A stretch of DNA of 64,000 bases from Cliona cf. orientalis (taxonomy: Eukaryota; Porifera; Demospongiae; Clionaida; Clionaidae), in assembly GCA_963930775.1 (NCBI GenBank), contig OZ005694.1:6627054-6691053 (forward strand), read 5' to 3'. Under the pieces are notes generated by a model. It had not been told where the DNA came from and ran no database searches. It was given only the letters and a program-made list of their open reading frames with translations. Positions 13,630 to 47,194 of the stretch are shown piece by piece. Position 1 is the stretch's first letter, and every line of letters begins with the position of its first letter. Both the position numbers and the translations under genes were made by a program.

Positions 13630-13639
13630 ATGCTACACA

Positions 13640-15055
13640 CCAGCCCCTATACCTACATAAAAAGACTTCCCCAGCCACTACCCACCTATTAGAAAACATG
13701 CACAACACTAGTACTTGCGTATCTAGAGAATTTGTTAGTGGGACCAGCTGAGAGAGCAATTCTAGTGTATTCTGGGCAGTACATTCTAGTGTACATTTAA
13801 TATCTGCAAACAAAAGACTGTGATCCTTCAGTGGAATCATGGTGGAATTATTATTACTTCAACACATCAGAAATATGCTCTAATCCACTTCCGCTTGCTC
13901 AGGTACGTACATTAAGGACTGGGTCACGCGGGTTCATGCAATGATCGATGGGCGTGGTCAGATCGATTATAGCATAGTGCCAAATAGCCGTCTAAGACTT
14001 ATTTTTAAGCATAAAACATAGCATTTATGTAAAATACCGCTCACCTGGAGTTGAAATAGCCAAAAAATCCATTGAATAAAGCTGTTTCAGCACTCTTCAC
14101 GATCATGCAGCTGAGGTGTCACATGACCGGTGCCACGCCCACCCCTATACAAAGTATAGAGAGCTAGGCCAAGCGGTCCGTGAAATCGCCTGGATAGGAC
14201 TCTCTAGCCGTATTTTCATAGAGTTTGGATGAAAATAAGAGATTATGCCGAAGGAAAGTGTGTAAAATCGTCGTGGCACGGAACGGTAGCGTTCATTTGA
14301 TCGTGAAGATTGGTGGTCAGCTACAAATGACGCTCTAGGAGTCAAATAAAACTTTCCAAGTAAGTTTTCTCTCGGTAGATACTTAGATAATAATAAGTAT
14401 AAACCTATAAACAGGGAGAAGCTCCCAACAAATAAAATTTCGGATTTGGCGTTTTGTGTTGTGGGAGTGATGTTAGTAAACATTGCGGTTTGGACCACCG
14501 GAAGAAGGCGTGGCCAGTTTGTTTACATGCATGGCTAGCAGAAGAGTAGTACTAACCGTTGGTTGTTGTCTGGTGTTGTACATTTATGTACTTCAAGAGA
14601 TATTGTTCCTTGAATACCAACCATTTTACTTAAGAATTATGATGACCCGGTCCTTAACTGGCCTGTGCATGTGGTCTAAGTGCGTCTTTCAATGCTAAGA
14701 GGCTGAAGTGTAAAAAAAAAAACAGGCAAATTTATGTTTAACCCCAAGTTTTAGGCCAGAGGAGTAGAGTGGACACTGATTATTTAGCAGAGCCCTGCCT
14801 TAGATACACCACTGTAAGAGATGCATGACATTGTGCATAAAATCATGAAGAGGAATAATACTATAATATTATTATACACATGTAGCAGCTATAGGTATAA
14901 ATAAAATATTACTATTTATGTTCTGTCCTTTAGTATAACTGATAGTTTTATACTCCACGTAAGTGCATGTCACAGAGCGATCCTTTAGCTGATTGGCTAT
15001 TCCTGCTGATTTGAGAGTCAGTGTGCTTTGAGTAATTGGGGCAACTGTCGACTCA
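13640..15055. other. Intergenic DNA, no supported gene
   Basis: Lies between the two minisatellites. A 117-codon open frame at 14498–14145 (minus) has one hydrophobic stretch but no recognisable domain or partner exon, so I do not call it a gene. The stretch includes CCACGCCC-type motifs common across the window. Confidence 0.4.
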
Positions 15056-16787: not shown

Positions 16788-16931
16788 CTACTTATCAAAA
16801 TACCATTTCAACTTAATTTTGAGTTATGTTGGAAGTGGTAATCTATCAACTTCATCACCACTCTTTAGCCAACTTGATAGTCTTTCCAGGCACAGCTCTT
16901 CAAGGTCACGTGATAGCAACATACTCTGTAA
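16788..16931 (-). pseudogene. Copy B exon 7: broken SOCS box
   Basis: Homologous to the SOCS exons of C and D (LEELCLERLSSWLKSGDEVD, RLPLP), but a 4-nt insertion after GCTATCA brings TGA into frame before the box, and a TAA replaces the Arg codon after LPLPT. Splice acceptor CCACAG is kept. The box therefore cannot be translated from the predicted frame. Confidence 0.75.
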
Positions 16932-19900
16932 CTGTGGATGGGTGCAAATCTATTATTACTGATGTGAGAGAGAGTACTGATGTAGCTATTATTCCTTATG
17001 AAACACAGAATTTGACTTAGCAGGCACAACAATGTTATTAAATTTTTATAGTGGATTATGGCCGTTCAACAGCATCTGTAGCTGTTGGTTTCGATTCTGA
17101 AGCAAACATCCAGAGTCCAATACCTATCATTCACTCTAGCCCCACACCCATACCACAAATCTATAAGGCCAAGGTTCAAACCAATGTATAGCTACTAGCA
17201 CTGTCATAACAATAGTGCATCAACATAGCACTATATAGCTACATAGCACTTGCAGTATGTGTCCAATAAGTCTCAGAATTACTACATGTCCCTTTATTAG
17301 ACAGTTAATTAGTACTTGAGTATGTGCAAAGCCCGAATACTACAGTTGGCTATGGATACAATTAACATGCAATTATTAGAATGAGCCACAAAACGTAATT
17401 AATTTTGCCAGGTCGTCTTTGACAAAAACGAAATTAGGTAAGCTTGGCATGAACTATTAGCAATCATAGCTACATGTAGGTGTGTGTACATACACTAGAT
17501 GTGACTACTGTAACACTCACCTGCTTTGGTGATAACTGTAGCAACACAGTGGCCATAATGGTCCACAACGGCATAGACATCAGTGTCTCTGGTGTAGATG
17601 TTCTTTGTTGCTATGCCCTGACTTTCACCATTCACAGTGAACTCCAGCACTCCACCTTGGGATAGACGTAATCCAACACAATCTCCCTCACGAAGATCAT
17701 CTAAATCAACATAGCCATAGTCTGATTCCTCTCCAGGAGTGACAAGGTTATTGGATAGTCTCTGGCCAGACCACACACAATGGTATTCAGCACAATAGGA
17801 GTCCTCAGGGATAAAAGGACCAGATTCGATGGGCACAGCTTTCTTGCACTTCCTCAGTCCAAATTGAAGTGAATTAAACCAATTTGCTCCATATGTCATC
17901 ATTTTCACCTCAAACTCTGCTAGTCCTTCAAGAGGTTGTGCTCCATATGCTACACCATATCTGAACTCATCTTCAGGGTTCATCCTCTCAGCTCCTAGTC
18001 CATTATTGGTGATTCGAATGTGTTTTCCCGCTGCACTGTGGTAGCCAAATTGAATGTCTTTGTTTTGTGTTGACTCATCTGTATCTGACTCTGACAGAGG
18101 ATCTTGTAGTCTTCTGATTTGGTCTTCCGTCACTACCATACATCCTGATAGAAAAAGAAAAGTATGTACATGTACATGTACGTAACTTGATGTATGTCCA
18201 CCCACATGACTCTTATCTGCATGTGTATCTATTAATTAATTTTGGGAGGCTCACTCATAATAAATTTATTATGCTCCCCACACAAGCCCCTCTCATTTTT
18301 GAATTGCATAATAATTATGTTCCTTCTCTATTAGATAGCCAAGCAAAAGCAATACCGCTATTCATTATATGAATGGCTTCTCTCGCTTGTGTGAATTGTA
18401 TTCATATCATGATATAGTGCATACATGACAGTATATGTAGTTGTGGTGGTAAGTTGCATTCAGGTATGTGTGTTAGTGTGTGTGATGTTTGTGTTAGAGA
18501 GTGACTGATTGTATTTGATTTGCTAGGCTTGAACCTAGAAATAAAATCAGGTGAAGTTCCCCCTCCCCCACCAAATTGGAACATTCTTGTATAGTTCATC
18601 AAATGCTTTTGTATCACAACACTAATTAAAAGAGTGCGGAGAAGTAATGCAACTACTGTTGTGTATATTCCTAAGGGAAATCCCTTACCCTGTGTTTATT
18701 CATCAATAGCAGAATAGAATGAAGCACTATCATATAAACCCTCATACATGAACCAATATTTTCCCCAGCATATGCATGTTTAAGGGAACACAATATACAT
18801 GTACATAATATGCTTTCACAACAGGCTATTTTTTGATGTGTGAATGGGACAGGGCCAAAAGCTTTGATAGTAAATTACAGGTTCCAACCTAGCATGCCTC
18901 AGCCTTGGGGATTGGGAGGACACTGAGTCTCAGAGTACAAATTAATCATAATATTTCCAGCCAGGTTTACATGAAATAGTGGTGACATAATGATGATCAC
19001 CCTAACACGTAAAGGTAGCTCAACATGATTTACATTGTACCTCCTACAACAATAAATAGATTATGCTTGTGTGCACACATAATTATAAACTCATTCACAC
19101 CTTTATAATCAATCTCTAGGTGTATATCCATCATTGAATCATCAGTGCTTCCTTCAAACTTGATGGTAGGTGGATCAAACCTTGTTCCTCTCATCGTCAC
19201 CTTGACGTGATAGTCTAGCAGCCGATGTTGCAGATCTTCATGCTCACTCTCCCTCCAAATGTCAGAAGCTCTAATCTATTGAAAGCGTAATTAACAGCAA
19301 AAGATAATTATTTCATACGATATACTGAGTGAGGGAATATGTACATGTAGCTAGCCATCCACCTGCACTTCATCCAATACTTTGATGTGTCATTGCTAGC
19401 AACTTCCCACCGGCCTCAAGGCTTTCCCCAGAAATTCAGAGTATAGGGGGCATTCTTGTTCATTTTGGCCAAAGATCAACGGCTTTTACTTCCCTGACTA
19501 CATTCCACTGACCACATCAAAGGGAAATAAATATAGGTAGAGTGGTGCAGCACTGCAGTGCCCCTAGGAAACCCCTGAATCATTGAAGGATCAGCCCCAG
19601 CTACTGATGCATTAGCTATTTAGACGTATACTGCTAGGACCTACTGCTAAAGTGATTGTTATGATTGCAGCTGTTGTCTATGCTAGTGTATTCATCTGAG
19701 CCAGCAGTCGTGTTTCTCTGTGCTCCATCACCCGTCATTGTTTTCTTGTCTGTTTTGTCTGTGCCAGCCCTGTTATTACTTCCCTACATAGAAACCTGTG
19801 CGCTCACTCTATGCAAGAGCCAACTTTACCTTAGCATCAAATTCAGCATACTACAAATGGATAGCACCTGTTTAATAACGTGTAGAGGGAAATATTCGAG

Positions 19901-22900
19901 GGAAAAACTTTTGTAGATCAGTATGAAGTGAAAATTTCAAGAAGAGAACTTTCACGGAATGCTAAATCAATCATATAGGTGGGTGGGGCATGCCTAAATT
20001 TGTGAAAAAATTTGTGAAAGGTTTCTCCCACAAAAGTTTCCCACTATACGGTATACACATACTACTTCTGGGATTGGTTGGGGTGCTCCTGATCATGAAA
20101 ACAAATCATCCCTTTAAATAAATCCACCACTTCATATTCATTGCCTCTGCACCCTAGCCTCTAAGATTTTCTAAGCACAAGTGGAACTTGACATCTGCTA
20201 GCTATCCATTGAGACATGTTACCATTCCATCTCCAGGCTCCACTGCAGTGATGAATGGGTTCTTCTCTGGCATAATGACTCTTAAAGATCCACCTGAACT
20301 GGCCGTTGAAGCAAATCTGAACTTTTCGATATAGTATTGATCACCATAATCACCATAGACTCCGTATTTGCGTCGCAATTTCAAAATCTACATGTTTAAC
20401 AAATATCAATAAGTAAACAATTCAAGAGCCAACTGAGGAATGCTACTCTACCTTCAGAGCTGTATTACGGAAATAAGCATCGATGTAGACTTCATGAATG
20501 TCTTTAGATGATTTTACTGACACAACAAGAGAATAGAGAGCATCAACACTGGCATCAGCTTGCTGTGGTGGACTCTCAACCTGTATGAGGGATATTTCTA
20601 AGAATCTATAAACTAGGCGACATTCTAGTGCTGAACTTTAGAATCTCGTGATTCTGACAAATACTAAATTCGTAGTTATTTCGTTTTCAAGCTCAATTTT
20701 GCACCTAGAATTCGACACTTTTATTATCTTATCAAGTTATAGGCAGTGTGTGCTCTGCGATGGGTAAGTCCATGACATTGTGCACTTGTAAGCATAAACA
20801 GTACTATTATCATCTGTCAGGGTTTCATCTAGCGACAAAAAATTTGGGGTGGTAGCGCGATAAATGAGTGGGTATATTTAGCATGCCAAGTACCTTGGGA
20901 CGTATTAATTTTTTTTAGGAGAATTCCTCCAGATTACAGTCAAGCCTCTGATAACGGACCCTCCGAGAAGCAGACAATCTCTCTACAGCGGACAAGTGCC
21001 GTGTTACCGATTGAATTTAGCATAGCTATAGTACATTAGCAACCTCCGAGAAGCGGACGCTTCTCGATTCCGGACAGCGGACAAGATCTAAGCTCCCAAT
21101 GTGACTTTTCAATGCAAAACTGCCTCTAAATAGCGGACATCCGGAAACCACGCCCTTAAATTAATGATGCCACGCCCACCTTTGCCGCAATCTAGGCGGT
21201 CGCAATATTATGCCGCATACGCGATAATAATATTCGCCTTGAATCCAGATAATGATTCTGGAGTAGCCAGTACTTCAGAAACAGCCTGTGCTATGTTGAC
21301 ACTGAAAATAGAACATACCAACCACTTGATTATCATCTCTACTGCTCTTATCATGCATTTCAGTACATTTACTAACTTGTTAAGGATAATACAATCAAAA
21401 TGGATTGGAAAATAATGAACCTCCGTGATAGGGACAACCCCCATGCAAAGGACAAGAGGCCTATTCCCAAATTAAAGTGTCCTTTGTTCGGAGGCTCGAC
21501 TGTATCTCGGGTAACTTTTGATCAAAAACATGATTATAATATGCTAGTTTAATTTTGTGACTTATTGTCAAACTCTTAGGGGGGAAGCTTCCCCCCTCCC
21601 CCCACCACCCCCCATGGCCATCCCCTGTCCCACTCCCCCACATGTCTGTTGTAAAGCATATTATCACATAGGGTGGAAGCTATCACGTATTAGTCATTTT
21701 GCATGAGATAAAAAACTCGTAATAAAAAAGAATCGTGAATTACGGTATGTATGTTACTTACGTGAGTGAATGCTGATAGAGACCCCATAGCTGATGATGT
21801 CATACATTCGGCTGCGACACTTCCCTGATACAGTGTCCTCTCACCCAGTGACAACTCAAGAATCTTTTCAGTCTGAAAAAATGTCGTGTCAATCTGGCTG
21901 ATTGCTTCTGTTAACTCCTGGACAGCCACAGTAGGGATAAACCACACAGCGATGAATGAGTTGGCAGATTCCACCAACATAAGGATAGACACAGTAACAA
22001 ATTCTGAACGTTGTAGCTCATTAAAGAACCGATTTCGAAAGGAATCTAGCTTTTCAACCGTGTATAATTTGGGGTCACCTGCAAACTTTGCTCTTAATAA
22101 CTCGTGGTCAATCGGTGGTACTTTAAGGCCGGGCCAGCAGTTTATTAGCTCACCGATAGTGGTATGTTTTTTGAACAACTGCACTTTTTCTGTGTATGAT
22201 GTCATTTCTTGTTTTAACTCTTGACTACCGAATTTTGAAACTAGGTGCTGGAGCAGTTCATAATCAATGAACGTAAAGAGTGGACTGAGGTGATAAAACA
22301 GGTTATCGACAACTTTTTTGTTCTCTAATTTGGGTAACATGTTCTGTATCCTACTTTGATACTCCCTCCTTAACTTAAGTGGCAACATAGTTAATACCCG
22401 CAACACTTCTTCAACCGAAGTATCTCCTTTTGATAATTCATTCACCAGGCGTTTATGAAGGCTGTCAAACTGCTCTTCCAGTGTGTCAATCTTCATGGAC
22501 ACATCCAGAGGCAACTCTGCATGGAATGACAAAGAATTAACATCTCATGCATGCTCAAATACTAACATTAAGTATCTATCTACTAGTAGAAGCACTGTTA
22601 ATATAAATAGGCACCAAATGTAGTATCCAAATGTATGCAATTACCATCCTGAGTAAGCGCCCATGTGCAAGTTATGTTTATGTTATGTTATGTCATTCCA
22701 TCATAAATCTTAATGAAATCTTTAACATAGGACACAAAATTAACGTGCTAAAATTTTCGCCAAGAAGAGCATACAACCATAAAATACATGTACTACATGT
22801 ATGGTAAAAGTGTCCAAATCTGATTCAGCAGTTTTGCTCATTTTTAACCCATGGCATAAATAATTATCTGAAGCTTCGCGCTACACATGTGAGGAGATTG

Positions 22901-24745
22901 CATATCCCCATATTGTACCGTAGATCGGGATATTTTCGCCAATAAAATATTTTGTTTGTAAATTTTTTGCGTAGTCTAAATTTCGTTGCCAGACTTTAGC
23001 AACCAGAAAGGTCAACATACATTACACAAAATATTTTGCGTGTTCAATTTTCGTTGGAAAAGGTCATTGATGAAAAATTTTTAACTGCGAAAATTTCGTG
23101 ATCTACGGTATTTGACTACTAAAGGGAACCAGTAGATAACACTGATGGTTTCTCTGAAAATCAGGTCTCAGAAGCAAACAGAAATGGCCTCCGAGATCGA
23201 AAAGTTAAAATTTTCCTGATGGAGCATACGCTGAGATCCCCTAGGGTAAACTAGTTAATGAGCACTACATTTAAAAAGAACAGTCCTCACCCCGTCTTTA
23301 ACTCACTAATTGTTGCATTTGCCCCCCCCCCCCCCCCGAAAAATTTAAATGAAACCCTGTCGATGATTGGTCATGCAAACTTAATGATACCTCCACTACA
23401 TGAAGCACCACTCGAAGAGGGTTGTGGTGGCATGAGTTGAAATAGGCACCATTTAGACGCGTAAAGGGCATTCCTTTAGCTGATGCAAGTTTCATGATCA
23501 TACGATCTACGAGATAGTTCTACTTGTAGTATGTTTGGTGACTGATAATCAGCAGTATACGCTACATAATCTATACAATGCAACCTTAACCCTCAGGTGC
23601 TTTGCGCCCTCGTGCTTCGGTGCAATAAATGCCATACATCCCTCGTGCCCATGATATAACTATTACGTACACATACAGTACATATACATGTATATAGTCT
23701 ATTCTCGTGCCCAGTCCCCCTTCATGCATGTGTAAGAAAGGGTTTGGTCAAAAGGGTCCCACTTCCTTGTCCTCGAGATACGTATAATATTATTACTACG
23801 CCCAATAATTTTGTAGATCCACGGTCATATGACATTAGTGGAATGTAAATACGCGCAGTTTGTACATACTATAAATCTGGAACTTTTTGTTGTAAAAATA
23901 TTTTCGTAGTCGGTGGCGGCTACGAAAATTAGTATGCACTATTAACGCTAATGTGGTAAGGAGTCGTTCCTACGAAAATATTTTTACACGAAAATTTATC
24001 ATACGAAAGTTTCTGTACACGAAAATTTCCAGATCTACGGTATATGTTATTGTACACACATGTGCTCGGCCTATGCACACGGCACAGAAGTAGCGGTTAA
24101 TGTGCACACCACACTTGTGAATTATTGCATTCCAGCCGGACACGTTAGTGCAACCCTTTTGATCATAACCTTTCTGGGTAGGAGGGGCTGGTGCACAAGA
24201 CAATGTTTAATATACAGTGAACATTGTCTAGTACATCCAAAATAGACTTAGGTGGCCTGCAGATCGTGGATATCAGTACCTGTAGAGACGGAGCCATTCT
24301 GAAAATGTTGAACTTGAAGTAGTTGATCGTTTCCAGAGGGCATTTCCAAACTGATCACGTTTCCAGACAGTGGTACAAGGGTCAAGGTGGGCTTGAGCTT
24401 TGTACACAGAAGATCCACGAGATCTCGACGCTTTCGTCGATGGAAGGCTCGAGCTAGCTTCAAGAAAGTGGCTCCTCGTCCTTCTTTTTTATGCCAGGCG
24501 TCCAGTAGGGACACTCTGCACATTTCCTGGCTGCTATTTTCTCGATTTATGTCCCGTAGCTCGTCTAAGGAAAACTCCAGATAACGACCAATCATCTCCC
24601 AGTCCGCGCCAAGTTCGACAGCGATATCATCTCTGATACTACGAGGGAATTCTCTGTCTAGGTCTTCTTCCTTGAAGCCGTGTCGCGACAAAATCTCTTC
24701 CAAAGTAGAACCTGTTTCGCTCGGAATTTGACCGCTTGTCGCCAT
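16788..24745 (-). CDS. Copy B of Death–helical module–NHR gene, SOCS box broken
   Basis: Exons: 24745–24280, 22516–21762, 20580–20452, 20387–20223, 19275–19101, 18144–17521, 16931–16788. Lengths 466, 755, 129, 165, 175, 624, 144; phases 1, 0, 0, 0, 1, 1 all fit. Death, helical and NHR exons are fully open. The last exon has a 4-nt insertion and an in-frame stop before the SOCS box, plus a further nonsense change inside it, so the predicted protein ends just after the NHR. It could be a pseudogene or a product that binds substrate without recruiting a ligase. Start codon is only 175 bp from the stop of copy C, as expected for a tandem duplicate. Confidence 0.75.
17521..18144 (-). CDS. Copy B exon 6: NHR domain
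   Basis: 624-nt exon, phase 1 both sides. NHR landmarks FGYHSAAGKHIRITN, GAQPLEGLAEFEVKMM, NWFNSLQFGLRKCKK, YGYVDLDDLREGDCVGLRL, LEFTVNGESQG, VYAVVDHYGHCVATVI. Shares the NWFNSLQFGLR patch with copy C and differs there from A and D. Open throughout. Confidence 0.88.
19101..19275 (-). CDS. Copy B exon 5
   Basis: 175 nt, IRASDIWRESEHEDLQHR then FDPPTIKFEGSTDDSMMDIH. Donor AAAG|GTGTGA, phase 1, same length as in A and C. Sequence just past this donor differs between copies by insertions, as expected for intron. Confidence 0.65.
20223..20580 (-). CDS. Copy B exons 3 and 4
   Basis: Exon 3 is 20580–20452 (VESPPQQADASVDALYSLV, DIHEVYIDAYF); exon 4 is 20387–20223 (ILKLRRKYG, SSGGSLRVIMPEKNPFI, EPGDGM). 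Phase 0 at all borders, no stops. Not recognised as a named domain. Confidence 0.66.
20935..21504. mobile_element. MITE with TACAGTCRAGCCTC ends (first copy)
   Basis: 570 bp with inverted ends TACAGTCAAGCCTC/GAGGCTCGACTGTA, containing CCTCCGAGAAGCGGAC-type subterminal repeats. A second copy lies in opposite orientation at 44882–45458. The TA edges fit a Tc1/mariner-type element. Located in intron 2 of copy B. Confidence 0.75.
21762..22516 (-). CDS. Copy B exon 2: helical module
   Basis: 755-nt exon, in phase with exons 1 and 3. The first about 75 residues (SMKIDTLEEQFDSLHKRL, EYQSRIQNMLPKLE) differ strongly from A and C; from LFTFIDYELLQHLVSKFG on, the three copies are near-identical. Open throughout. 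Function unknown; likely an all-helical protein–protein module between the Death and NHR domains. Confidence 0.8.
22800..23358. mobile_element. Fragment of CAGGGTTTCAT-family element with a nested TACCGTA MITE
   Basis: Ends AAATGAAACCCTG at 23358 and contains AAGCTTCGCGCTAC, both shared with the fuller element at 30192–30664. A smaller inverted-repeat element with ends TACCGTAGATC (22916–23110) sits inside it. The left end is not found. A C-run of 16 lies near the right end. Confidence 0.5.
23867..24042. mobile_element. Small diverged TACCGTA-type MITE
   Basis: 176-bp palindromic element: AAATCTGGAA at the left pairs with TTCCAGATCTACGGTA at the right, with inner CGAAAATATTTT repeats. In intron 1 of copy B. 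Non-coding. Confidence 0.55.
24280..24745 (-). CDS. Copy B exon 1: Death domain
   Basis: ATG at 24745–24743 (MATSGQIPSE), 155 residues, phase 1 donor at 24279. Death-domain landmarks LEEILSRHGFKEEDLDRE, ADWEMIGRYLEFSLDEL and LLDAWHKKEGRGATF at the same positions as in copy A. Nearly identical to copy A outside the first dozen residues, although downstream exon 2 of B is the outlier. That mosaic pattern suggests gene conversion. Confidence 0.87.
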
Positions 24746-24919
24746 GTTTTGGCCTCCACCCTTCAAAAACGCCCCAACATCTAGCCCCACCTCTCCCATG
24801 ACATTATGATTCTGCGCATGCGTAGTTAGCTCACTGACTCTCAATCAAGAGAAATTATTATATACACACAACATAATTATTATTATTAAGAAAAAATGAG
24901 ACTAGCTATAATAATATGA
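24746..24919. promoter_or_regulatory. 174-bp spacer between copies B and C with NRF1-like site
   Basis: This is all the DNA between the stop of copy C (24920) and the start of copy B (24745), so it must hold C's 3' end and B's promoter. It contains the palindromic TGCGCATGCGTA at 24813–24824, an NRF1-type core promoter element in animals. A-rich sequence with no AATAAA that I can see precedes C's stop region. The regulatory role is inference. Confidence 0.5.
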
Positions 24920-25059
24920 CTACTCATTAAAATACCCTTTCAACCTGTCTTTGAGTCTTGTAGGAAGTGGTAGTCTATCAACTTCATCACCACTCTTTAG
25001 CCAACTTGATAGTCTTTCCAGGCACAGCTCTTCAAGGTTGATAGCACCATACTCTGTAA
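24920..25059 (-). CDS. Copy C exon 7: SOCS box and stop
   Basis: Acceptor CATCCACAG, then 46 residues: INLEELCLERLSSWLKSGDE, VDRLPLPTRLKDRLKGYF, stop. This matches the SOCS box pattern (SLxxLCRxxI … LPLPxxLKxYL), with the LC dipeptide of the BC box and the LPLP of the Cul box visible. SOCS boxes recruit Elongin B/C and a Cullin to ubiquitinate what the partner domain binds; NHR–SOCS occurs in vertebrate NEURL2. Confidence 0.83.
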
Positions 25060-25390
25060 CTGTGGATGGGTGCATGGCAAGAAAATTAATAATTACTACT
25101 TAAAAATTATGACATTGAAATGTGGTCAGTATAATTATGAGTGTTAATAATAATAATGATACAATTGCACCCACTAGATTGAAATCCTGCACTGAATTTT
25201 CAATCAACGACTGCATGTACGGAACATGATCACAAGAAATTTAGGCATATCAAAGAAAGAGGCTCAACTTCCTCAAGAGTTAGCCTTCAGCCAGCGCTGA
25301 AGGTACAAGGTCTATCTGGCATGGGGACATGCTATATAGCATGCCAAGCATGCATGAACATCAAGCCATGTAGTAACAGAGTACTTGTAG

Positions 25391-25580
25391 TACCGTAAAT
25401 CGCGAATATTTCGATATTAAAATATTTTCGGACAGCATGGCTTGTGCGAAAATTAAACGTACAAAATACTTGCGTAATATTAACGACAATGCGGTACAGG
25501 GTCGTTTGTCCGAAAATTATTTAACGCGAAAAATTATCGCATGAAATATTTTAGCCACGAAATATTCACGATTTACGGTA
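25391..25580. mobile_element. TACCGTA MITE, 190 bp
   Basis: Perfectly placed inverted ends TACCGTAAATCGCGAATATT and its partner (one mismatch region), TA edges, in the NHR–SOCS intron of copy C. Absent from the same intron of copy B. Tc1/mariner-type by TA edges. Confidence 0.7.
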
Positions 25581-25893
25581 TGATGTGTCCAATAAATATC
25601 GCCGACGGCTTATTCTACCGTACGGCGGGTAATTTTCATGGGGTGCTAATTTTCGTTATTTTCGTGGTGACTTGGCAGTCACGAAAGTTTTCAACTCACG
25701 AAAATTAATCCCTAAGGTGATATGGTACTATGTGAGTCCATGATGATGGGCATGGCCACAAACATCGTGATAGCACGGACAACAGTGACACTTGCAAGCA
25801 ACAGTAGCCAGCCGATAACGTCTTCGACACTAATATTCTTCTATCATGCTATATCCAAGTCTCTGTGTTTACATACACTACTGTAATACTCAC

Positions 25894-26517
25894 CTGCTTT
25901 GGTGATAACTGTAGCAACACAGCGGCCACAATGGTCCACAACAGCATAGACATCAGTGTCTCTGGTGTAGATGTTCTTTGCTGCTATGCCTTGACTTTCA
26001 CCATTCACAGTGAACTCCAACACTCCATCTTGGGATAGACTTAATCCAACACAATCTCCCTCATGCAGATCACATAAATCAACATAGCCATAGTCGGACC
26101 TCTCTCCAGGAGTGACAAGGTTATTGGATAGTGTCTGGCCAGCCCACACACAATGGTATTCAGCATCATAGGAATCCTTAGGGATACCAGGACCAGATTT
26201 GATGGGCACATCTTTCTTGCACTTCCTCAGTCCAAATTGCAGTGAATTAAACCAATTTGCTCCATATGTCATCATTTTCACCTCAAACTCTGCCAGTCCT
26301 TTAAGAGGTTGTGCTCCATATGCTACACCATCTCTGAACTTACGTTCAGCATTCATTCTCTCAGCTCCTAGTCCATTATTGGTGATTCGAACGTTTCTTC
26401 CCGCTGCATTGTGGTAGCCAAACTGAATGTCTTTGTTTGGTGTTAAATCATCTGTATCTGACTCTGACAGAGGATCTTGTAGTCTTCTGATTTGGTTTTC
26501 CGTCACTAACATAATCC
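25894..26517 (-). CDS. Copy C exon 6: NHR domain
   Basis: 624-nt open exon, phase 1 in and out. FGYHNAAGRNVRITN, GAQPLKGLAEFEVKMM, NWFNSLQFGLRKCKKD, YGYVDLCDLHEGDCVGL, LEFTVNGESQG, VYAVVDHCGRCVATVI. Same fold landmarks as copies A, B and D. Spliced directly to the SOCS exon 835 bp away. Confidence 0.88.
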
Positions 26518-27572
26518 CTGATACTAAAAGAAAAGTGTGTACATGTACGTAACTTGATGTTTGTCCACCCACATGACTCTTATCTGCATGTGCATCTGTT
26601 AATTAATTTTGGGAGGCTCACTCATAATAAATATTATATTGTGCTCCCCACACAAGCCCCTCTCATTTTTGAATTGCATAATAATTATGTTCCTTCTCTA
26701 TTAGATAGCCAAGCAAAAGCAATACTGCTATTCATTGTAATTATGAATGGCTTCTCTCACTTGCTTGTGTGAATTGTATTCATATAGTGCATACATGAGT
26801 GTACATGTAGTTATGGTGGTATGTTTCATTCAGGTATGTGTGTTAGTGTGTGTGATGTTTGTGTTAGAGAGTGACTGATTACATTTGATTTGCTATGCTT
26901 GAACTTAGCCGTATTAAAGCAAAATCAGGTGAAATTTATATTAGAGTTAAGATGGATGACCCCTTATCAGGCATGATCCCCCACCCCCTCCATATTGGAA
27001 CATTCTTATGCAATTCATCAAAATGCTTTTGTATCTTCAATATAATATGATAAAAGAGTGTAGTGAAGTAATGCAACTACTGTTGTGTATATTCCTAGCA
27101 GAAACCCCCCGACCCTGTGTTTATTTGACAACTTCATCGATAGTAGAATAGACTGAAGCACTATGATCATACAAACCCTCATAGCTTACATTAGCTGCAC
27201 ATAGCCAGCCAAGCCAGCAACATAATTAGCAGTGATACAATAGAGTAAAAATAGGAATGTCATTATACATTGCAGCAGTGGCATCAGAATTCACTTTTCA
27301 ACAAGTACATCAAAATTAATGATTTCAATATACATTTGTATAAACCACATAGCACAGCAATAGACTTGACTGATGCCAAAAATTGTCTTTGATTTCTTGA
27401 TCAATTTATAGTTTACTGAGGTGAACACCCACTTTATATAGTATACGGAGGTGAGCGGGATCAAAATGAACGGTCATGGGTATCAGTACATCAGGTATAG
27501 TAGTGACCACCCATTGATTGTTAACCCTATGGCACATGAGGGTTAATAATGTTTTCCCCAGCATAAGATACA

Positions 27573-27783
27573 TACCGTATAGCGGGAAATTTTCGAGGGA
27601 GAAAACTTTCGCGGATCGGTAGGAAAGGAGCATTTCGCGGAGAAAACATTCGCGGAACATTAAATCTGGTCGCATAATAGGTGTGGCATGCCTAGAATTT
27701 CGTGGAGAAAACCTTCGCGGATGTCTGAAAAATCGTGAAATTCGTGAGAGTTTTCTCCCTCGAAAATTTCCCTCTATACGGTA
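27573..27783. mobile_element. TACCGTATAG MITE, 211 bp
   Basis: Inverted ends TACCGTATAGCGGGAAATTT / AAATTTCCCTCTATACGGTA with repeated GAGAAAACNTTCGCGGA inside. Related older copies occupy matching intron positions in all three genes (about 6484–6652, 19886–20053, 29293–29460), so that insertion predates the duplications, while this one is specific to copy C. Confidence 0.75.
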
Positions 27784-28070
27784 ATTATAATAATTTTGCC
27801 TTCATGATGTGGGAATGGGACAGGGCCAAAAGCTTACAGGCTCCAGCCCCATTTCCCAATATACGTCAGCCTTGGGGATTATAGGGAGGACACTGAGCAC
27901 ACATGTAAATTCCTTAATCATATCTCCAGCCAGGTTTAGCTATATGTAATAGTGGTGATTCAACGATGATCACCCTAACCAACAGATATGCATGTAAAGG
28001 TAGCTTAACACAACTTACATTGTACCTCCCACAACATCAAATTTAATTACAGCATCATGTCTTTTCATAC

Positions 28071-28245
28071 CGTAAGAATATATCCGTGGGTGTATATCCA
28101 TCATTAAATCATCTGTGCTTCCTTCAAACTTGATAGTGGGTGGATCAAACCTTCTTCCTCTCATTGCTACCTTAACATGATAGTCTAGCAGCCGATGTTG
28201 CAGGTCTTCATGCTCACTCTCCCTCCAAATGTCAGAAGCTCTAAT
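28071..28245 (-). CDS. Copy C exon 5
   Basis: 175 nt, IRASDIWRESEHEDLQHR, FDPPTIKFEGS, MMDIHPRIYSYG; donor ACG|GTATGA, phase 1. Conserved in length with A and B. Confidence 0.65.
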
Positions 28246-28344
28246 CTGTTGAAAAGGGTAATTAATGGCAAAGAAAATTATTTCATACAATATACATTTA
28301 TGAGGGAGGGAATAATGTTATAGTAGCTAGCCATCCACCTGTAC

Positions 28345-28737
28345 CAAGAGTAAATAATAAGGAGGGGAAGAGAGTGTCGAACGCGCTATATACCCCGTGT
28401 AATATATTTTCGGCAAGTAACGTGACTTTCAGCCGTGCGCACGTGACTAGCCCAAGGGGCTAAACACTTGATTTTTCTTAGAACTGAGAAGAATAGAGGC
28501 GTTTTTCATGAGTTTTATGCTATAAATGCTTGTTTTATATTGTGATCTGCTCGTGCTTTCGGTCGAAATCGCACTCGCGTTAGCTTGCACTCGAGGCCAC
28601 GCCCACAACATATCATTTGAATCGAGCGCTCTGATTGGTCAATTTTTGAATTCCTGGCACGTGACTTTCCGAAAACATCTTGTACGGAGTATATAGCGCA
28701 TTCGATACTCTCTTCCCCTCCTTATTATTTACTTTCG
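28345..28737. mobile_element. MITE, 393 bp, 7-bp target duplication
   Basis: Inverted ends containing AGTAAATAATAAGGAGGGGA, followed by pairing over about 50 bp, flanked by CCTGTAC at 28338–28344 and 28738–28744. Copies A and B have the empty site (CCACCTGCACTT). A 7–8-bp duplication fits a hAT-like element. Confidence 0.75.
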
Positions 28738-29665
28738 CCTGTACTTGATCCAATACTTTGATGTGTCATCGTGAGCAACCTCCCACTGGCCTCAAGGCTT
28801 TCCCCACAAATTCAGAGTATAGGGCGGTATTCTTGTTCATTTTGGCCAAAGATCAATTGAAGGTTTTTACATTCCGGACTACATTTCACAGACCACATCA
28901 AAGAGAAATGAACACACATAGAGTGGTGCAGAGCTGCAGTGCCTCTAGGGAATCCCTGAGCCATTGAAGGATCAGCCCCTTCTACTGATGCATTGGCTAC
29001 AGAGATATATACTGCTAGGACCTATTGCTAAATGACTGCAGCTGTTCTCTGTGCTAGTGTATTCATGTGAGCCAGCAGTTGTGTTTCTCTGTGCTCTGCC
29101 CCTTGCTCCCATCACCCATCATTGTTCTTTTGTCTGTTTTGTCTGTGCCAGCTCTGTTATTAGCTACTTCCCTACATAGAAACCTGTGTGCTCACTGTAT
29201 GCAAGAGCTAACTTTACCTGCTTGTTGTGTGGATTTAGCATCAACACTACAAATGGACTAGCCAACACCAATTAGATAGCACCTGTTTAATAAGAGGAAA
29301 ATATTCGAGGGAAAAGCTTTCGCAAATCTGTAGTAAGTGAGAATTTCACAGAGAAAACTTTCGTGGAATGTTAAATCAACTGTATAGGTGGGTGGGGCAG
29401 GCCTAAATTTGTGGAAAAAATTTGTGAAAGGTTTCTCCTGGCAAACGTTTTCTACTGTAGGATAAATACATACAACTTCTGGGATTGATTTGGGTGATCC
29501 TGATCATGAAAACACATTCACCCCAGTAAATATAATATATCAGTAAATAAATCCATCACCCCTCTTAGTTCCTCGACACATTGCCTTTGCACCCTAGCCT
29601 CTAAGATTTCTAAACACAAGTGGCACTTGATATTACTTTATTAGCTATCCATTGTGATATGTTAC

Positions 29666-30022
29666 CATTCCATCTTCAGGCTCCACTGCAGTGATGTGTG
29701 GGTTCTTCTCTGGCACAATGACTCTTAACGATTGATCTGAACTAGGCATCAAAGCAAATCGGAAATTTTTGATATAGAATTGCTCATCATAATAGCCATG
29801 GGCTTTGTGTTTGCGTCGCAATTTCAAAATCTATAAGTGAATAAACATCAATAAGTAAACAATTCAAGAGCCAACTGAGGAATGCTACTTTACCTTGAGA
29901 GCTGTGTAATGAAAATGAGCATCGATGTAGACTTCATGAATGTCACCGGATGATTTTACTGACACAACAAGAGAGTAGAGAGCATCAACACTGGCATCAG
30001 CTTGCTGTGGTGGACTCTCAAC
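29666..30022 (-). CDS. Copy C exons 3 and 4
   Basis: Exon 3 is 30022–29894 (VESPPQQADASVDALYSLV, DIHEVYIDAHFHYTALK); exon 4 is 29830–29666 (ILKLRRKHKAHGYYDEQF, LRVIVPEKNPHI, EPEDGM). Same sizes (129, 165 nt) and phases as in A and B. No stops. Confidence 0.65.
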
Positions 30023-30191
30023 CTGTATGAGAGAGGTTTCCATAAAATTGGATCTTCTAAAACAATTCGATTGTATGTCACACTTGGCAATTTGGCAAAT
30101 TCAGTATAGATCACCAAATTAAAAACCAGTCAATTTAATGCTTGAGTAGTATATTAAACGATTTTGAACATAATTCATGAAGAAAACATGG

Positions 30192-30664
30192 CAGGGTTTC
30201 ATTTAGGGGGGGGGCGGGAGGGGTCACTCGCCCCCCCTTGGAAGCAGGCTGCCCCCCCTTGAGAGTAGCCACCATCCATACATGCAATACATGCACAAAT
30301 AAAAGATTTAAACGGTGAAAGTGTCCAAAGCGGCAATTTTGCTCCATAAATTAGCTAAAGCTTCGCGCTACGCGCGGTAGGAAACACATACCACATCCTT
30401 ATAACATTTGACTTGAAATAGAGGGGAACCAGAGGATATTACTGACAGACTTTCCCCATCTGAGTGCTCAGAAGCCACCAGAAACAGTCTCAGAGGTTGA
30501 AACATTAAAAAATTTTCCTGGGGGAGCATGCCCCCAGACCCCCCTAATATAATGAAGTTAATGAGCACAACATCAGACAGAAAACGTACTATAGTCTTTG
30601 CCCCCCTTAACTCTGGAATTGTCGTATTTGCCCCCCCTTGACAAAAATCCTAAATGAAACCCTG
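30192..30664. mobile_element. CAGGGTTTCAT element, 473 bp, 5-bp target duplication
   Basis: Ends CAGGGTTTCATTTAGG and CCTAAATGAAACCCTG, flanked by CATGG on both sides (30187–30191, 30665–30669); copy A carries the empty site once (ACATGGGATATAGG near 7318). Internal runs of C and G. Family undetermined. Confidence 0.75.
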
Positions 30665-31092
30665 CATGGGATATAGGACGTTTCGGACTCGTGGTCCTTA
30701 TTCTTCATGTTCTAGAATCGCTCAATAAACTACTCCAAACATTAAGACAATATAGTTATGAGCCTATACTCGATTAGTCAATGCATACGCCATTCTAGAC
30801 GATATCAATGGCCAGATTTGATTACAAATCGATCAGATGCCTAGATCTCCAGATCTGACAATTTTCATGTATATACAGACAAAACCAAATTTATTCTTTG
30901 CTACGTACGCACGCACGCACGCACACACACCACAGGGTGGCAATGAAATCTTCAATATTGGTCTTGGCATAAAAGTAAGATAAAAAATTATGTGCATGTA
31001 TACGTAGGTAAGATATAGAATTTGAGAACATGAAATACTTCCATAAATTCCCGCTACCATGTATGTACACTAAAAGAAAATTTTGTACTTAC

Positions 31093-31838
31093 ACGAGTGA
31101 ATGCTGATAGAGGCTCCATAGCTGATGATGTCATATATTCAGCTGTGGTATTCCTCTGATACAGTGTCCTCGCACCCAGCGACAGCTCAAGAATTTGTTC
31201 AGTCTGAAAAAATGTCGTGTCAATCTGGCTGATTGCTTCTGTTAATTCCTGGACAGCCACAGTAGGGATAAACCACACAGCGATGAATGAGTTGGCAGAT
31301 TGCACCAACATAAGGATGGACACTGTAACAAATTCTGAACGTTGTAGCTCATTAAAGAACCGATTTCGAAAGGAATCCAGCTTTTCGACGGTGTACAATT
31401 TGGGATCACCTGCAAACTTTGCTCTTAACAAGTCGTGGTCAATCAGTGGTACTTTAAGGCCGGGCCAGCAGTTTATTAGCTCACCAATAGTTGTGTGTTT
31501 TTTGAACAACTGCACTTTTTCTGTGTATGATGTCATTTCTCGTTTTAACTCTTGGCTACCGAATTTTGAAATGAGATGCTGAAGCAGTTCATAATCAATG
31601 AACGTGAAGAGCGGATTGAGGCGATAGAACAGATTATCAATAACTCGTCTCTCTTCTAATTCGGGTAACATGCTCTGTATTTTACTTTCATACTCCGTCC
31701 TGAATGTGAGTGGCAACCTTGTCAATGCTCGCAATACCTTACCCACTGAAATACCTCCTTCAGTCACCAGGCGTTCATGAAGGCAGTCAAACTGCTCTAT
31801 CAATGTTTCAATCCACTGGGGCACATCCAGACGGGACA
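31093..31838 (-). CDS. Copy C exon 2: helical module
   Basis: 746-nt exon, 9 nt shorter than A and B (a three-residue deletion after HERLVTE). Its first 75 residues match copy A (WIETLIEQFDCLHERL, LEERRVIDNLFYRLNP) and not B. Open throughout, acceptor TGCAG and donor GTAAGT kept. Flanking intron from about 30650 to 31090 is also almost identical to copy A's 7320–7730. Confidence 0.8.
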
Positions 31839-32290
31839 CTGCATGGATAATGAGCTTATGTGATCAGATGGTGAGATTTTTGTACTTAACATTATTTTTA
31901 ACGGGAGGTACATGTAACTTTCACAAGCACTATTCCGGCCTCAAACTCTATATAGAGTTTAGTAGAGCACACACATGTATATGCCCCATGTGCATCCAAG
32001 CACTTGTTGACAACCTTTACCTACCTAGCACGCTAGATTGTACGCATGGGCAGAATGCACAAGGCATAGGCGGTGGAAGGAAGCTTTGACTGGGAGGGCA
32101 AACATTAACAATTGCGCACAAAGCTCACGAGAAAATTTTAGGGACACATCCCCTTTAATTGCAGTTCAAAGGTCATTTGTGTCAATTGGTGGTGCTGTTA
32201 CTGTCAGAAACAAAAAATGTGCACTGTGATTGATTCTTGAAGCTACATGTACATGTATTCTAGGCAGCTTTTGTAGGTATTTTGATATAA

Positions 32291-32692
32291 TACCATAGAA
32301 ACTGGTTGTTAAGCACTGCTCGCTATTAAGCGCATATTTTTTATTAAGCACATAGTTTTGTGCATGCTTTACCGCTCTTTGTTAGGCGCATACATGTATG
32401 TCCAGCAAGCCAGCTGAACGACAAGCGATCGGTTACATGAGCCCAGAAAGAAGGCTAGACGTAGGCTGGAGAAGAAAACGTCGAGAATTTAATACACTCT
32501 GTGGTGGCTTCTTCGCCACCGTTGTAGGCCTTTCTACCCTCGACACGTTCTTTATGTACGCCCCACCTACCGTGTTTTAGCACTTTTAATTAAGCATATG
32601 CTTCCTATTAAGCGCATACTTTTTATTAAGCGCATATTTTCTTGCTGCCGCGTGTTATAAGCACATGCGCTTAACAACCAGTTTCTACGGTA
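32291..32692. mobile_element. TACCATAGAAACTGG MITE, 402 bp
   Basis: Ends TACCATAGAAACTGGTTGTT / AACAACCAGTTTCTACGGTA, TA edges, and inner repeats of TTAAGCGCATA in both halves. Tc1/mariner-type. It lies in intron 1 of copy C. Confidence 0.75.
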
Positions 32693-32741
32693 TTATTTGT
32701 TATGAAAAGTAGCCACTTTATGATATCACTAGCTTGGATTT

Positions 32742-33015
32742 GGGGGGGGGGGGGGGGGGGGGGGCAAGTGCACCCCTGCACCCCTATTCTGTTGCCTATG
32801 CAAGGGGGTGCAGTTGATAGGCGTGGCCAATAAAAATGCAGTTTTACAATGTTCCCAAACGATTCAAGCCATAATAGAGCAAGTTTTTCGACGATTTCGT
32901 TGTGCTTACGAGTGCCTAGATCTCGACATGTGGCAATTTTCATGCTGATACAGATAAACAGGCAGACAGAACAAATTACTTTACCCTTTATTGCGTATGC
33001 ACGCATGAGGTAAAT
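32742..33015. repeat. Run of 23 G followed by dispersed repeat (second copy)
   Basis: G23 at 32742–32764, then from about 32805 the same family as 2275–2530 (AGGCGTGGC, CGACGATTTCGTTGTGCTTA, CTAGATCTCGACATGTGGCA). Confidence 0.5.
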
Positions 33016-33144
33016 AATTAAAAATAGTTTGTCAAGTCCTAAATTATACGCAGTGGCTATAGATCCAGCAGCCCGACAACCATTGCCAACACTATAGATC
33101 CGGCAGAAATACTAGAAAGTTTTCAGCTAGAAAAAATCTGAAAT

Positions 33145-33215
33145 AAAAAGGAGAAGCTGGATCCGAGCCCGTACCATTGATTACACACTGCCACTACACC
33201 ACAATGCTGCCGCTG
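33145..33215 (-). repeat. Possible tRNA-derived SINE head
   Basis: On the minus strand TGGTGTAGTGG fits the Pol III A box and GGCTCGGATCC resembles a B box about 32 nt later, followed by a TTTTT run. The arms do not fold into a convincing cloverleaf, so this is a tRNA-like relic at best. Confidence 0.3.
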
Positions 33216-33617
33216 CCGCCGCCAGTGCTGGAACCCATACACCAAACAACAATGATACTAATGTAATACATCACCCTGTAATACAGACCCTAGAACTAAC
33301 CCTGCTAACATGCGGTAGCCGAAACACCCTACCTACCTACCCTGCCGAACTACTAACTAACCCTGCTAACCATACCATAGCCAAAACCCAGCCCTACCTA
33401 CCATACAAACGTATAGTCACCTATAGCATTGGAAAAGGTCGTCCGGCTGTGCCGGACCAATAGCCACTACGTAAATTATACATGTTACCGTATGATGTAC
33501 CTGGAGAACTTGATCCACCTTGGTGCTGTTGAGCCTGATGCTGTTGGTCACTTCCAGAGGGTATTTCCAAGTTGGTGACACTTCCTGATAGTGGTACCAG
33601 GCTCAAAGTCGACTTAA

Positions 33618-34627
33618 GGTACCATTTAATTGCGTGGGCGTGAGCGTCAGGAATGGCTAATTCAATTAGCGAATCGTGAAGGGGCGTGGCCGAAGAGGCC
33701 ATACGAGTGCTTTTGGTCGAAGGTGGGCGTGTCCAGAATCGGCCAGGGATGATTATGCGCGTGTAATTAGCGACCGGAAGTGGCCCCTGAAGAAAAGGCC
33801 GGTAATTGCCCACATCAAAGCAAGATCAAAGCATTCTTGCTTAACTATTAACCGCAACGACAAAAAAAAAAAAAAAAAAAAAAAAGCTAATTAGGCTTAA
33901 TTAAGCATGTGGGCGTGTTCCTGGCACTGTGTGGAGTGTGTGCGTGTGCGTTAATGCAGGTTTTATTGCTTCCGATTGGGCGTGGCTTCACGGGCCAGTG
34001 CTTGGACATCGGGGCCGGGGACTTGGCTGCGGCGATAGGTGGGCGTGTCCCGGATGCGATGGTGACCTTTGAACCCGTCCAGGAGGCTTTGGGGGCGTGG
34101 CAGGAGGTCAAAGGTGAGGCCATGTCTGTTAATGAGGCACTGTACGGCGGTGCGATCGAGGGGCCTGTACGGCTGGACGGAAGCTGACGATGGTTTGAAG
34201 CGGATGTGGTTGCGATGACGTGTTGTTACTCCGCCCACACAGGAAATGAGGTGAGCTCTTGCGTGGGCGGTGTGGCAGAACGGCCTCCAAGTGTTTGTGT
34301 GTGTTTTGGCCTTGAGGAAGCTGTGTGTTTTAATTGGGATTGATTGTGGGCTTCCGGTGGACATTCGGTGGTTAGTAGGCACTTGATTGAGAATGGTGGT
34401 CCTTGGGGAAGAGGGTGGGGCTGTTTTGGGCGTGGCCTGGCCCCTCCCTTCCGGCTCGGCTTCCGGTCCATGGAGGATATTAAATGAACACTTCCGGCTC
34501 TAGCAGCCACACCCCTGAGACCTGTGCAATTAAAAGGGCGTGGTTACACAACATGCACCTCACTAATGACTTTGATGTGGTTTAGGTGTCATATCCCCAC
34601 CTCACGCCCACGCAATTTAATGGTACC
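33618..34627 (+). mobile_element. TTAA element, copy 1 (1010 bp), in Death exon of copy C
   Basis: Inverted ends GGTACCATTTAATTGCGTGG… and partner (26 of 27 bases paired), flanked by TTAA at 33614–33617 and 34628–34631. TTAA targets are typical of piggyBac-type transposition; the ends GGTACC are not the classic piggyBac CCY ends, so the family is tentative. Contains an A-run of about 24 and no transposase. Same family at 61364–62343 and 62348–63368. Confidence 0.8.
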
Positions 34628-34803
34628 TTAAATTTGGCACACAGGAACTCCACGAGATCACAGCGTTGTCGACGATGCAAAACGCTAGCTAGCTTCAGAT
34701 ACGTGGCTTTCTTACCCTCCCTCTTGCCCCATGCAGGTATCCAACAGAGCTATCCTGCAGAGATCTTGGCTAGAGTTCTCGCGATTTATATCTCTCAGTT
34801 TCT

Positions 34804-35111
34804 CAAGGGGGGGTCACTCCCATAGGCGCCGTGTCCAGAGCTGCGACCGGGGTCAAAATGCAGTCAAACGGTCAAGGCACTTTTTGGGGGTCGGTCAAAC
34901 GGTCAAGCGGTGTTCTGGGCCCTATCTCCGGCATAGCTAGGCGGCCAAGAGGCGTGGCCGAGATTTTGCGCATGCGCAGTTAGTCGATGGTCAACGGGTC
35001 AAGGGCAAAAATTCGCCGTGGTCAAGCGGTCAAGGCCATTTTTAGACGGTCAAAAATCTTGACCCCGGTCGCAGCTCTGGACACAGCGCCTATGGGAGTG
35101 ACCCCCCCTTG
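34804..35111. mobile_element. MITE, 308 bp, in Death exon of copy C
   Basis: Long inverted ends starting CAAGGGGGGGTCACTCCCAT and pairing for about 45 bp, flanked by GTTTCT on both sides. Inside are repeats of GGTCAAACGGTCAAG. Inserted within the coding exon, after the LEFTLE codons. Confidence 0.8.
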
Positions 35112-35344
35112 GTTTCTCCAATGTGAACTCGAGGTAACACCCAACCATCTCCCAGTCGCCAAGCTTAACAGCAACCTCGTCTCGGACCCGCTTGGGGCAT
35201 TCCTTGTCGAGATCCGTGGGTTTTAAACCGTGTCGGGACAAAATCTCCTCCAAACTAGGACCTGCTTCTCTCACAATAGGACTGATCGACGCCATGATGC
35301 TGTTTATCTCGCTCACCACACCCCAAGAAGCAAGAAATATTATA

Positions 35345-36989: not shown

Positions 36990-38435
36990 TTTTGGGGGCA
37001 TATTGTGCGATATTAATGGAAAGTATTAGCCGGTTGATTTATCAACCGTAGTCAACTGAGTAAAGTGGACAGCCAGTAATGAATCATAATATACCGTAGT
37101 ACCAAAGTAGCTAATAGGAATGAAGCTAGTGTTACCTGACCACTAGCTAGCACTGATTTATTTCTGTGACCCTCCCCCACCCACTCATGGTAATAATATT
37201 ATGCCTGCAACACTGGAAGCTTACGCTTGATAAAAGACATCCAACCACCATTTTCACCTGGAAAGAGAGAGAGACAAAGCTAGAGCACTGATTGCCGAGT
37301 GGAACTGCCTCAATGCAGCAACACGCATGGCACACACTAACGGCAGCAATAAACACATATGGGCTCCACTGCACAGGAATACTTTGGTAAGACAAGAAAT
37401 GACGTAGCAACATTGTATATAGTACATGTTATTGTAAATAACGAGGTGTTGGTGGAAAATAATTCAGATGGTATTCTCTGAGTCTTATTTAGCCTTGATC
37501 TTTCCATTGTTGAGTATCTATCACTGCATGCTCCGCTTCCAATGGCCTCACTGTTCATTCCGGACACCCTAGTAATAGTCTTGTCACAGTATATGACACC
37601 TTTTATGCCAAGACAAGAGGACAGATCGATTCTAGAGAATATGTGACCTGCTCTGAGAATAGGGACCCACCCGTTAGCACATAAAATTTAGTATTCATTT
37701 TCCAATAATGGCTGAAATGTGAAAAAATAAGCTTTTCTTCAAAAATTGAAGGTTTTGGCTTCATTTTGATATATTATGTTTATATATTTGTATCAAATAA
37801 TTTAATTAAAAACGTAGCTATGGACGCAATTAATTGCTCCAATATATTATGCAACTTACCCAGTAATACCGAATTTAATTAAAAAATGCCTATTTTCAGA
37901 AAATGACTCTATCTACCCGAGTGAATAAAAATGGTCATGCATAACTCCATTTGTGATCAATATTTTTCCTTGCAACTTGCACCATTGTACTCAGCATAGA
38001 CAGAGCTATCTATCCATGCTAAAATCTCAATATTCATAAAAATTTCTCTAAGGTCCCTTTTCTCAGAGCATGCAGGTCACATATTATTATTATGAAGGGG
38101 GGGCCAAGATTGAGAGAAAGAGCAAGATCGAGTAAAACTGAGCGAGTACATTGAGATATATCGATATGAAGCAGAATAATAATTATTATAACCCAATTTA
38201 ATCCCGTATTTTGCTCACCAGTAATATTCCAGTTGCTTCCTCGAGTAGTCCTCTTACCCATGTGTTTCCAAAGCCAGAGGAAGCTGGCTATACTATAGAG
38301 CCACGGCTGCCCTCCTTGTCCCATTAATGAATTAAAGTGGAATTTAATTTATTTTTGTTTTGCATGGTATACCCTGCACATTAATATTAATTTTGATTCC
38401 TGTAGCTGGCTGCATAAATAATTTTCTTGATTTAC
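36990..38435. other. Region without a supported gene
   Basis: AT-rich, with scattered open frames lacking domains. It lies between the coding relic and the decayed Death exon. Confidence 0.4.
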
Positions 38436-38440
38436 ATGTC

Positions 38441-38598
38441 ATAGTTTATCCAATGAAAACTCTAAACAAAAACTAATCATTTCCCAGTACACTCCAAGTT
38501 CAACAACGATAGCTATTATCTCATAATTGGTCTGGATCTTCTGTGAATCTTTATTGCTCATGAAGCCATACTTATCGTGACAAAAAATTTAATAATGA
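38441..38598 (-). pseudogene. Decayed Death-domain exon
   Basis: Reading minus, GTTGAACTTGGAGTGTACTG and the following bases give VELGVYWEMISFCLEFSLDK, matching VELGADWEMIGRCLEFSLDE of copies A and B, with the upstream part (CACGATAAGTATGGCTTCAT) matching the SRHGFKEE codons but carrying stops and indels. Only the middle of the exon survives. It lies 3' of the SOCS exon of copy D, where the next gene's Death exon should be. Confidence 0.7.
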
Positions 38599-41234: not shown

Positions 41235-41367
41235 TGCCATTCTGGCATAATATCATGCAGACCGTCTGACATGTTTATTGATCACGATGATGTTTACATT
41301 AATTTGTTAATAGTAATATTAGCTATGTGATTTGTATGTAGCTATGTATTCCTGTGAGACTTGTTGA

Positions 41368-47184: not shown

Positions 47185-47194
47185 CATCTATTTG

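Follow-up and report, generated by a model that had tools for sequence, protein, structure and literature searches.

The locus described here raises the question of whether Death, Neuralized (NHR) and SOCS-box exons that follow one another on one strand of a sponge contig encode parts of a single protein and, if so, what such a protein would do. The window, by which we mean the whole 64,000-nt stretch of DNA analysed, carries members of a single gene family in tandem on its minus strand: copies A, B and C and a fragmented copy D. Copy A extends from 10974 to 920 and continues past the window edge, copy B from 24745 to 16788 and copy C from 35295 to 24920. A decayed Death exon fragment containing stops was detected on the same strand at 38241-38510 (tblastn E 9e-9). 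Death, NHR and SOCS parts are all intact in none of the four copies within the window.

Exon structure of the array copies

All exons lie on the minus strand. In copy A, exon 1 (10509-10974) comprises the start codon and the Death domain in 466 open nucleotides with donor GTAGCT, and exon 2 (7733-8487, 755 nt), with putative helical and alpha/beta halves, has a fitting acceptor, donor and phase. Exons 3 (7076-7204, 129 nt, phase 0), 4 (6847-7011, 165 nt) and 5 (5658-5832, 175 nt, ending in phase 1) are each bounded by AG and GT, and the 630-nt exon 6 (920-1549) contains the NHR domain; all six exons of this copy that lie inside the window are open. Copy B has a likewise open Death exon 1 of 466 nt (24280-24745), an exon 2 of again 755 nt (21762-22516) with 81% identity to that of copy A, exons 3 (20452-20580), 4 (20223-20387) and 5 (19101-19275), a 624-nt NHR exon 6 (17521-18144) and a 144-nt exon 7 (16788-16931) containing a broken SOCS box. 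In copy C a broken Death exon is present in pieces between 33547 and 35295, followed by a 746-nt exon 2 (31093-31838) with 91% identity to that of copy A, exons 3 (29894-30022), 4 (29666-29830) and 5 (28071-28245), a 624-nt NHR exon 6 (25894-26517) and a 140-nt exon 7 (24920-25059) with an open SOCS-like box and a stop codon. Exon 6 of copy D is split into an N-terminal part (63368-63585) and a C-terminal part (45825-46242), and its exon 7 (39561-39698) contains an open SOCS-like box.

The sequence-only reading of this DNA had claimed a single seven-exon model with equal exon lengths in three copies. Exons 3, 4 and 5 do measure 129, 165 and 175 nt in each of copies A, B and C, and exons 1 and 2 agree in length between A and B; the model does not extend to the split exon 1 and 746-nt exon 2 of copy C, to the broken exon 7 of copy B or to exon 7 of copy A, which is not present in the window. 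Its claim of consistent splice phases was borne out, in that the junctions 10509/8487, 7733/7204, 5658/1549 and 25894/25059 are all GT/AG with compatible phases, and splice sites and phases are consistent across copies A, B and C except at exon 1 of copy C and the broken exon 7 of copy B. The NHR exon ends in phase 1, and exon 7 of copy C follows it in frame to ...INLEELCLERLSSWLKSGDEVDRLPLPTRLKDRLKGYFNE and a stop codon. In the A-B alignment the final match within intron 6 stops at 229 in copy A and 17286 in copy B, so exon 7 of copy A would lie just beyond the window edge.

Domain content of the predicted products

Pfam searches matched the Death domain (PF00531, cut-off 22.6 bits) in copies A (43.0 bits, E 4.9e-11) and B (43.8 bits, E 2.8e-11), with no match in two ORFs from the split exon 1 of copy C. 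The NHR domain (PF07177, cut-off 23.3 bits) was matched at 71-76 bits in copies A (E 1.2e-20), B (E 1.2e-19) and C (E 3e-21) over profile positions 1-145 of 149, with one NHR stretch per copy. The NHR exon also matches the KIAA1787 NHR domain in PDB (E 4e-7), and a SPRY match in copy A (14.2 bits) is below its Pfam cut-off of 26.3. As predicted from these translations, the Death and Neuralized/NHR assignments can be regarded as certain.

SOCS boxes combine a BC-box, LxxxCxxx(hydrophobic), with an LPxP Cullin-5 box. When exon 7 of copy C was searched alone, the SOCS profile (PF07525) gave 19.6 bits (E 0.0011), below the cut-off of 23.5, and the match covered only profile positions 22-39, the Cullin-5-box half; in the joined copy C product the score was 15.0 bits. 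The string LPLPTRLKD in this exon is identical to SOCS2 in PDB, within a match that is weak as a whole (E 1.5). A pattern of BC-box plus LP(LIVM)P (LEELCLERL...LPLP) was found at three sites in six-frame translations of the window, all of them in a proposed exon 7 (copies B, C and D), against a mean of 0.04 occurrences and a maximum of two in 50 shuffles of 500-base blocks. The last exon therefore probably encodes a SOCS box. Of the profile matches anticipated in the sequence-only reading, those for Death and NHR were obtained above cut-off and that for SOCS was not, and the "intact SOCS box" ascribed to copy C is better described as an open, SOCS-like last exon with a sub-threshold profile score.

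The module encoded by exon 2

The TRADD-N superfamily has the order beta-alpha-beta-beta-alpha-beta, and a small-Ser turn joins its strands 2 and 3. Judged by eye, the second half of exon 2 has the order strand-helix-strand-strand-helix-strand and includes an NS turn. This resembles TRADD-N in topology and a short motif only, and the putative assignment is a lead and nothing further. Exon 2 matched no Pfam family at E<=10, including PF13820 and PF20694, and a TRADD-N identity was not supported by Pfam, by alignment to NCOA6, by profile-profile comparison, by AlphaFold2 or by Foldseek. In single-sequence alignment to a human NCOA6 segment, 499 of 3000 shuffles scored as high for copy A and 1751 of 3000 for copy C. 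A survey of 244 genomes from a single bacterial phylum (cyanobacterial) yielded PF20694 domains in 12, and 12 of the 13 matches served for comparison, the weakest (L141) being left out. In hhalign comparison with these 12 domains, 104/200 column shuffles scored as high for the second half of exon 2 and 46/200 for the whole exon; with NCOA6 added, the corresponding values were 25/200 and 46/200. AlphaFold2 models built from three near-identical rows reached pLDDT values of 35.5 and 44.8, too weak to use; their elements follow the order helix-strand-strand-helix, a helix taking the place of the first strand. Foldseek returned no match at E<=0.001. Searches with the exon 2 alignment in collections of non-eukaryote genomes and viral contigs confirmed no relative, nor did searches of viral contigs with the exon 2 core and the NHR domain. 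Among seven genomes reached via cyanobacterial loci, the exon 2 alignment gave two matches (E 0.4-0.5) that were attributed to chance, and PF13820 exceeded its cut-off in 0/7.

Disrupted copies, mobile elements and other features

In exon 7 of copy B, four extra bases shift the frame and a stop falls within the box. The Death exon of copy C was recovered by tblastn as pieces at 35295-35107, 34807-34718 with the overlapping 34740-34609, and 33618-33547, and is interrupted twice, once by ~0.3 kb of inserted sequence and once by an element of 1 kb that has inverted ends. The two halves of the NHR exon of copy D lie ~17 kb apart.

A mobile element of ~1 kb with inverted ends (GTACCATTAAATTGCGTGGGCG...) was observed at 33614-34631, 61359-61912 and 62344-63372. 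The sequence at 62344-63372, next to the point where the copy D NHR exon is broken, shares 97% identity with the element inside the copy C Death exon; TTAAG is present on both flanks of the copy C element and on the near side of that in copy D. Between the NHR and SOCS exons of copy D lies a retroelement (40416-44452, plus strand) with a zinc-knuckle ORF and a reverse transcriptase (PF00078, E 2e-20), together with weak RNase H-like and Dam matches that are both below cut-off. Its last ORF, without a Pfam match, resembles a tyrosine recombinase, and the element is DIRS-like in layout.

Elsewhere in the window, a minisatellite of 31-32 bp units at 11187-13751 has three open plus-strand frames of 366 to 804 codons; it is low-complexity sequence and probably non-coding. 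Tandem minus-strand ORFs at 50217-58496 appear by eye to be membrane-protein-like, being Cys-rich towards the N-terminus and containing hydrophobic stretches; the three ORFs tried gave no Pfam match at E 0.01. A 15-bp repeat array at 47157-47564 is open in both directions.

Divergence between copies

Pooled Nei-Gojobori dN/dS values were 0.42, 0.28, 0.33, 0.64 and 0.33 for exons 1-5 and 1.01 for exon 6, with single-pair values of up to 1.14 (exon 4, B-C) and 0.77 (exon 5, A-C), exon 4 being the least clear; the six changes in exon 7 are too few for an estimate. A codon model of exon 2 gave an omega of 0.44 and no sign of a positively selected class (2dlnL 0.57). For the NHR exon 6, omega was 1.1-1.25 (1.25 in copies A, B and C) with a class of sites above 1, and comparison of M2a with M1a in these three copies gave a 2dlnL of 11.0, a value reached in 0/60 simulations under M1a (maximum 5.05). 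Inclusion of copy D gave 24.5 to 36.9 over three trees, with 24.5 on the likeliest. The site models were our own implementation and the three-copy result is preferred, since copy D is a broken copy. Removal of the indel-rich columns 82-100 did not weaken the signal (2dlnL 13.1 in copies A, B and C). Analysed alone in these copies, segments 1-52, 53-127 and 128-end gave 7.0, 0.9 and 4.6, the latter two non-significant; with copy D the values were 10.6, 2.5 and 16.6. The plain dN/dS of exon 6 is not significantly greater than 1 (codon bootstrap 0.66-1.36), the signal being confined to the site models.

Synonymous divergence within exon 6 is uneven, with a pS of 0.21 in 53-127 compared with 0.04 and 0.07 elsewhere, an approximately 3-5-fold difference. 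This is a sign of gene conversion, which is able to mislead site tests, and the site-model signal could be inflated by conversion or by uneven synonymous rates. Identity between copies is also mosaic. Exon 1 of copies A and B (10975-10510 and 24746-24280) is 93% identical with nothing found in the flanks, and part of intron 2 in copies A and C (7732-7318 and 31092-30665) differs by 3.4%, compared with 9.5-17.3% for three other introns. These patches point to gene conversion between copies as the probable source. Exon 2 is constrained, and the NHR exon is fast-evolving yet open.

One gene or two

Judged from the DNA, exons 1-7 probably form one gene. In all three copies the frame of exon 2 lacks an ATG between its acceptor and the nearest stop upstream and therefore wants an upstream exon. 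The order of Death exon, exon 2 and onward to the NHR and SOCS exons is preserved in copy C despite its old and divergent Death exon, which has 59% identity to that of copy A over the first 64 residues (tblastn). Between copies A and B, no match was found at E 1e-3 in intron 1 or in the 5' flank of exon 1, and homology of exon 1 stops within at most 6 bases of the exon ends; with the exon alike and its surroundings unmatched, it may have moved or undergone homogenisation independently of the rest. An arrangement of two neighbouring genes, one with the Death and helical exons 1-5 and the other an NHR-SOCS gene of exons 6-7 starting at the exon 6 Met, would account for the Met found 2-3 codons into exon 6 in copies A, B and C and for the 4.1 kb length of intron 5 in copy A. 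It is nevertheless quite improbable, as in all three copies exon 5 has no stop and ends in a phase-1 donor matched by a phase-1 acceptor at exon 6, the gap between these exons is only 956 bp in copy B, and copy D has Ile at the position of the exon 6 Met.

Predicted function and alternative interpretations

The interpretation we favour, to which we give a probability of about 0.6, is that the array would encode a family of Cullin-5 substrate receptors in which the death-fold half is conserved and the binding half diversifies. For this we infer a single transcript, Elongin/Cullin binding and a target. A single spliced product of ~820 residues would begin with a Death domain, continue through a helical and alpha/beta module and an NHR domain, and end in a SOCS box. 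Its Death and helical parts would insert it into death-fold signalling assemblies, the NHR domain would bind a target, the SOCS box is predicted to recruit Elongin B/C and Cullin-5, and the target would be ubiquitinated at the site of the death-fold complex. A conserved front half combined with a fast-changing NHR domain fits copies whose NHR halves would bind different or fast-evolving targets, as in an immune-type role. We hold only tentatively a more specific version, in which the NHR exon of such a death-fold ubiquitin-ligase adaptor family would be under diversifying selection and shuffled by gene conversion, with the Death/helical half conserved, so as to provide an innate, copy-variable recognition repertoire acting via Cullin-5 ubiquitination at death-fold assemblies.

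The same parts could work in the opposite sense. SOCS-box proteins often terminate signalling, and the Death domain might itself pick the target, with SOCS/Cullin-5 ubiquitinating and removing death-fold complexes and the NHR domain serving in dimerisation or localisation. The NHR domains of Neuralized and Ozz are indeed discussed as oligomerisation surfaces in the available part of one account (PMC9098882). Such an off-switch appears doubtful, since among exons with enough changes the NHR exon has the highest dN/dS between copies, as expected of the side that reads the target. An exon 6 omega near 1 is also what lost constraint would produce if the cluster were decaying and most of its copies were pseudogenes riddled with mobile elements; in keeping with this, the SOCS box is broken in copy B, the Death exon in copy C and the NHR exon in copy D. 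However, exon 6 contains no stops in the four copies, compared with 5.7 expected in a neutral simulation (P 0.001), or in copies A, B and C alone (P 0.0175), and its indels are all of 3 or 6 nt, whereas 64/81 pairwise intron indels have lengths not divisible by 3. Lost constraint is therefore a poor explanation for exon 6, and with all in-window exons of copy A open, wholesale decay is an unlikely account of the array. If the Cullin-5 substrate-receptor interpretation holds and the exons encode one protein, an early-branching animal would have targeted ubiquitination built directly into a death-fold complex, and, with the NHR exon changing so fast, NHR swaps between copies could be used to test how targets are chosen.

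Comparison with known systems

SPSB proteins are Cullin-5 substrate receptors in which a SPRY-like fold is followed by a SOCS box, the order also predicted for the array; they are not known to have a Death domain. The array differs in carrying an NHR rather than a SPRY domain by Pfam, and its PDB match to SPSB3 is weak (E 0.22). An NHR domain followed by a C-terminal SOCS box is likewise the arrangement of NEURL2/Ozz, the substrate receptor of CRL5-Ozz, for which the text available describes protein binding by NHR domains and docking of Elongin B/C-Cullin-5 by the SOCS box (PMC9098882). That protein has 285 residues with two NHR domains as its bulk, and the same portion of text mentions no Death domain, whereas the array has one NHR domain and a long Death/helical front end.

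Neuralized domains have also been described in immune architectures of the Death/TIR kind, a likeness to the array. For a sea-anemone immune gene of kinase/Death/TIR type, the nearest architecture given in the accessible sections has Neuralized replacing kinase and SH3 and occurs in a centipede and an oyster, with Death implied there rather than spelled out (PMC5094078), and a figure legend for Aplysia, the part of that source available, names both NHR and Death for the domains it depicts (PMC9334734). Within these excerpts the centipede, oyster and Aplysia proteins carry TIR and/or Roc-COR domains and SOCS is not mentioned (PMC5094078; PMC9334734); neither TIR nor Roc-COR was found by Pfam in the array copies. 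More broadly, SPRY-like domains as a group, Neuralized included, are reported in excerpts of a further study to be coupled to Death-superfamily members (Kaur et al. 2021, PMC8195603). The sections of that study available describe 357 TRADD-N proteins in Amphimedon, and most of their architectures consist of one to three Death-like domains followed by TRADD-N and a variable C-terminus. These proteins of the NCOA6 clade, for which a role in immune conflict is proposed, share with the array a sponge-type lineage-specific expansion with an N-terminal Death-superfamily domain, a middle module and a variable C-terminus; Neuralized and SOCS are not named among their C-terminal domains in those sections (PMC8195603). 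The middle module of the array, unlike theirs, fails PF13820, PF20694 and profile comparison.

The sequence-only reading knew of no described protein with this combination. This is only partly right. No record of Death, NHR and SOCS in one protein was found in open-access literature listings; the pairwise parts, Neuralized with Death/TIR-type proteins (PMC5094078; PMC9334734) and NHR with SOCS in Ozz, are already in print in the portions cited above. As predicted here, the Death-NHR-SOCS triple looks new and follows a known mix-and-match theme, and, if true, it would bring a new C-terminal partner to the many sponge proteins that are headed by a Death domain.
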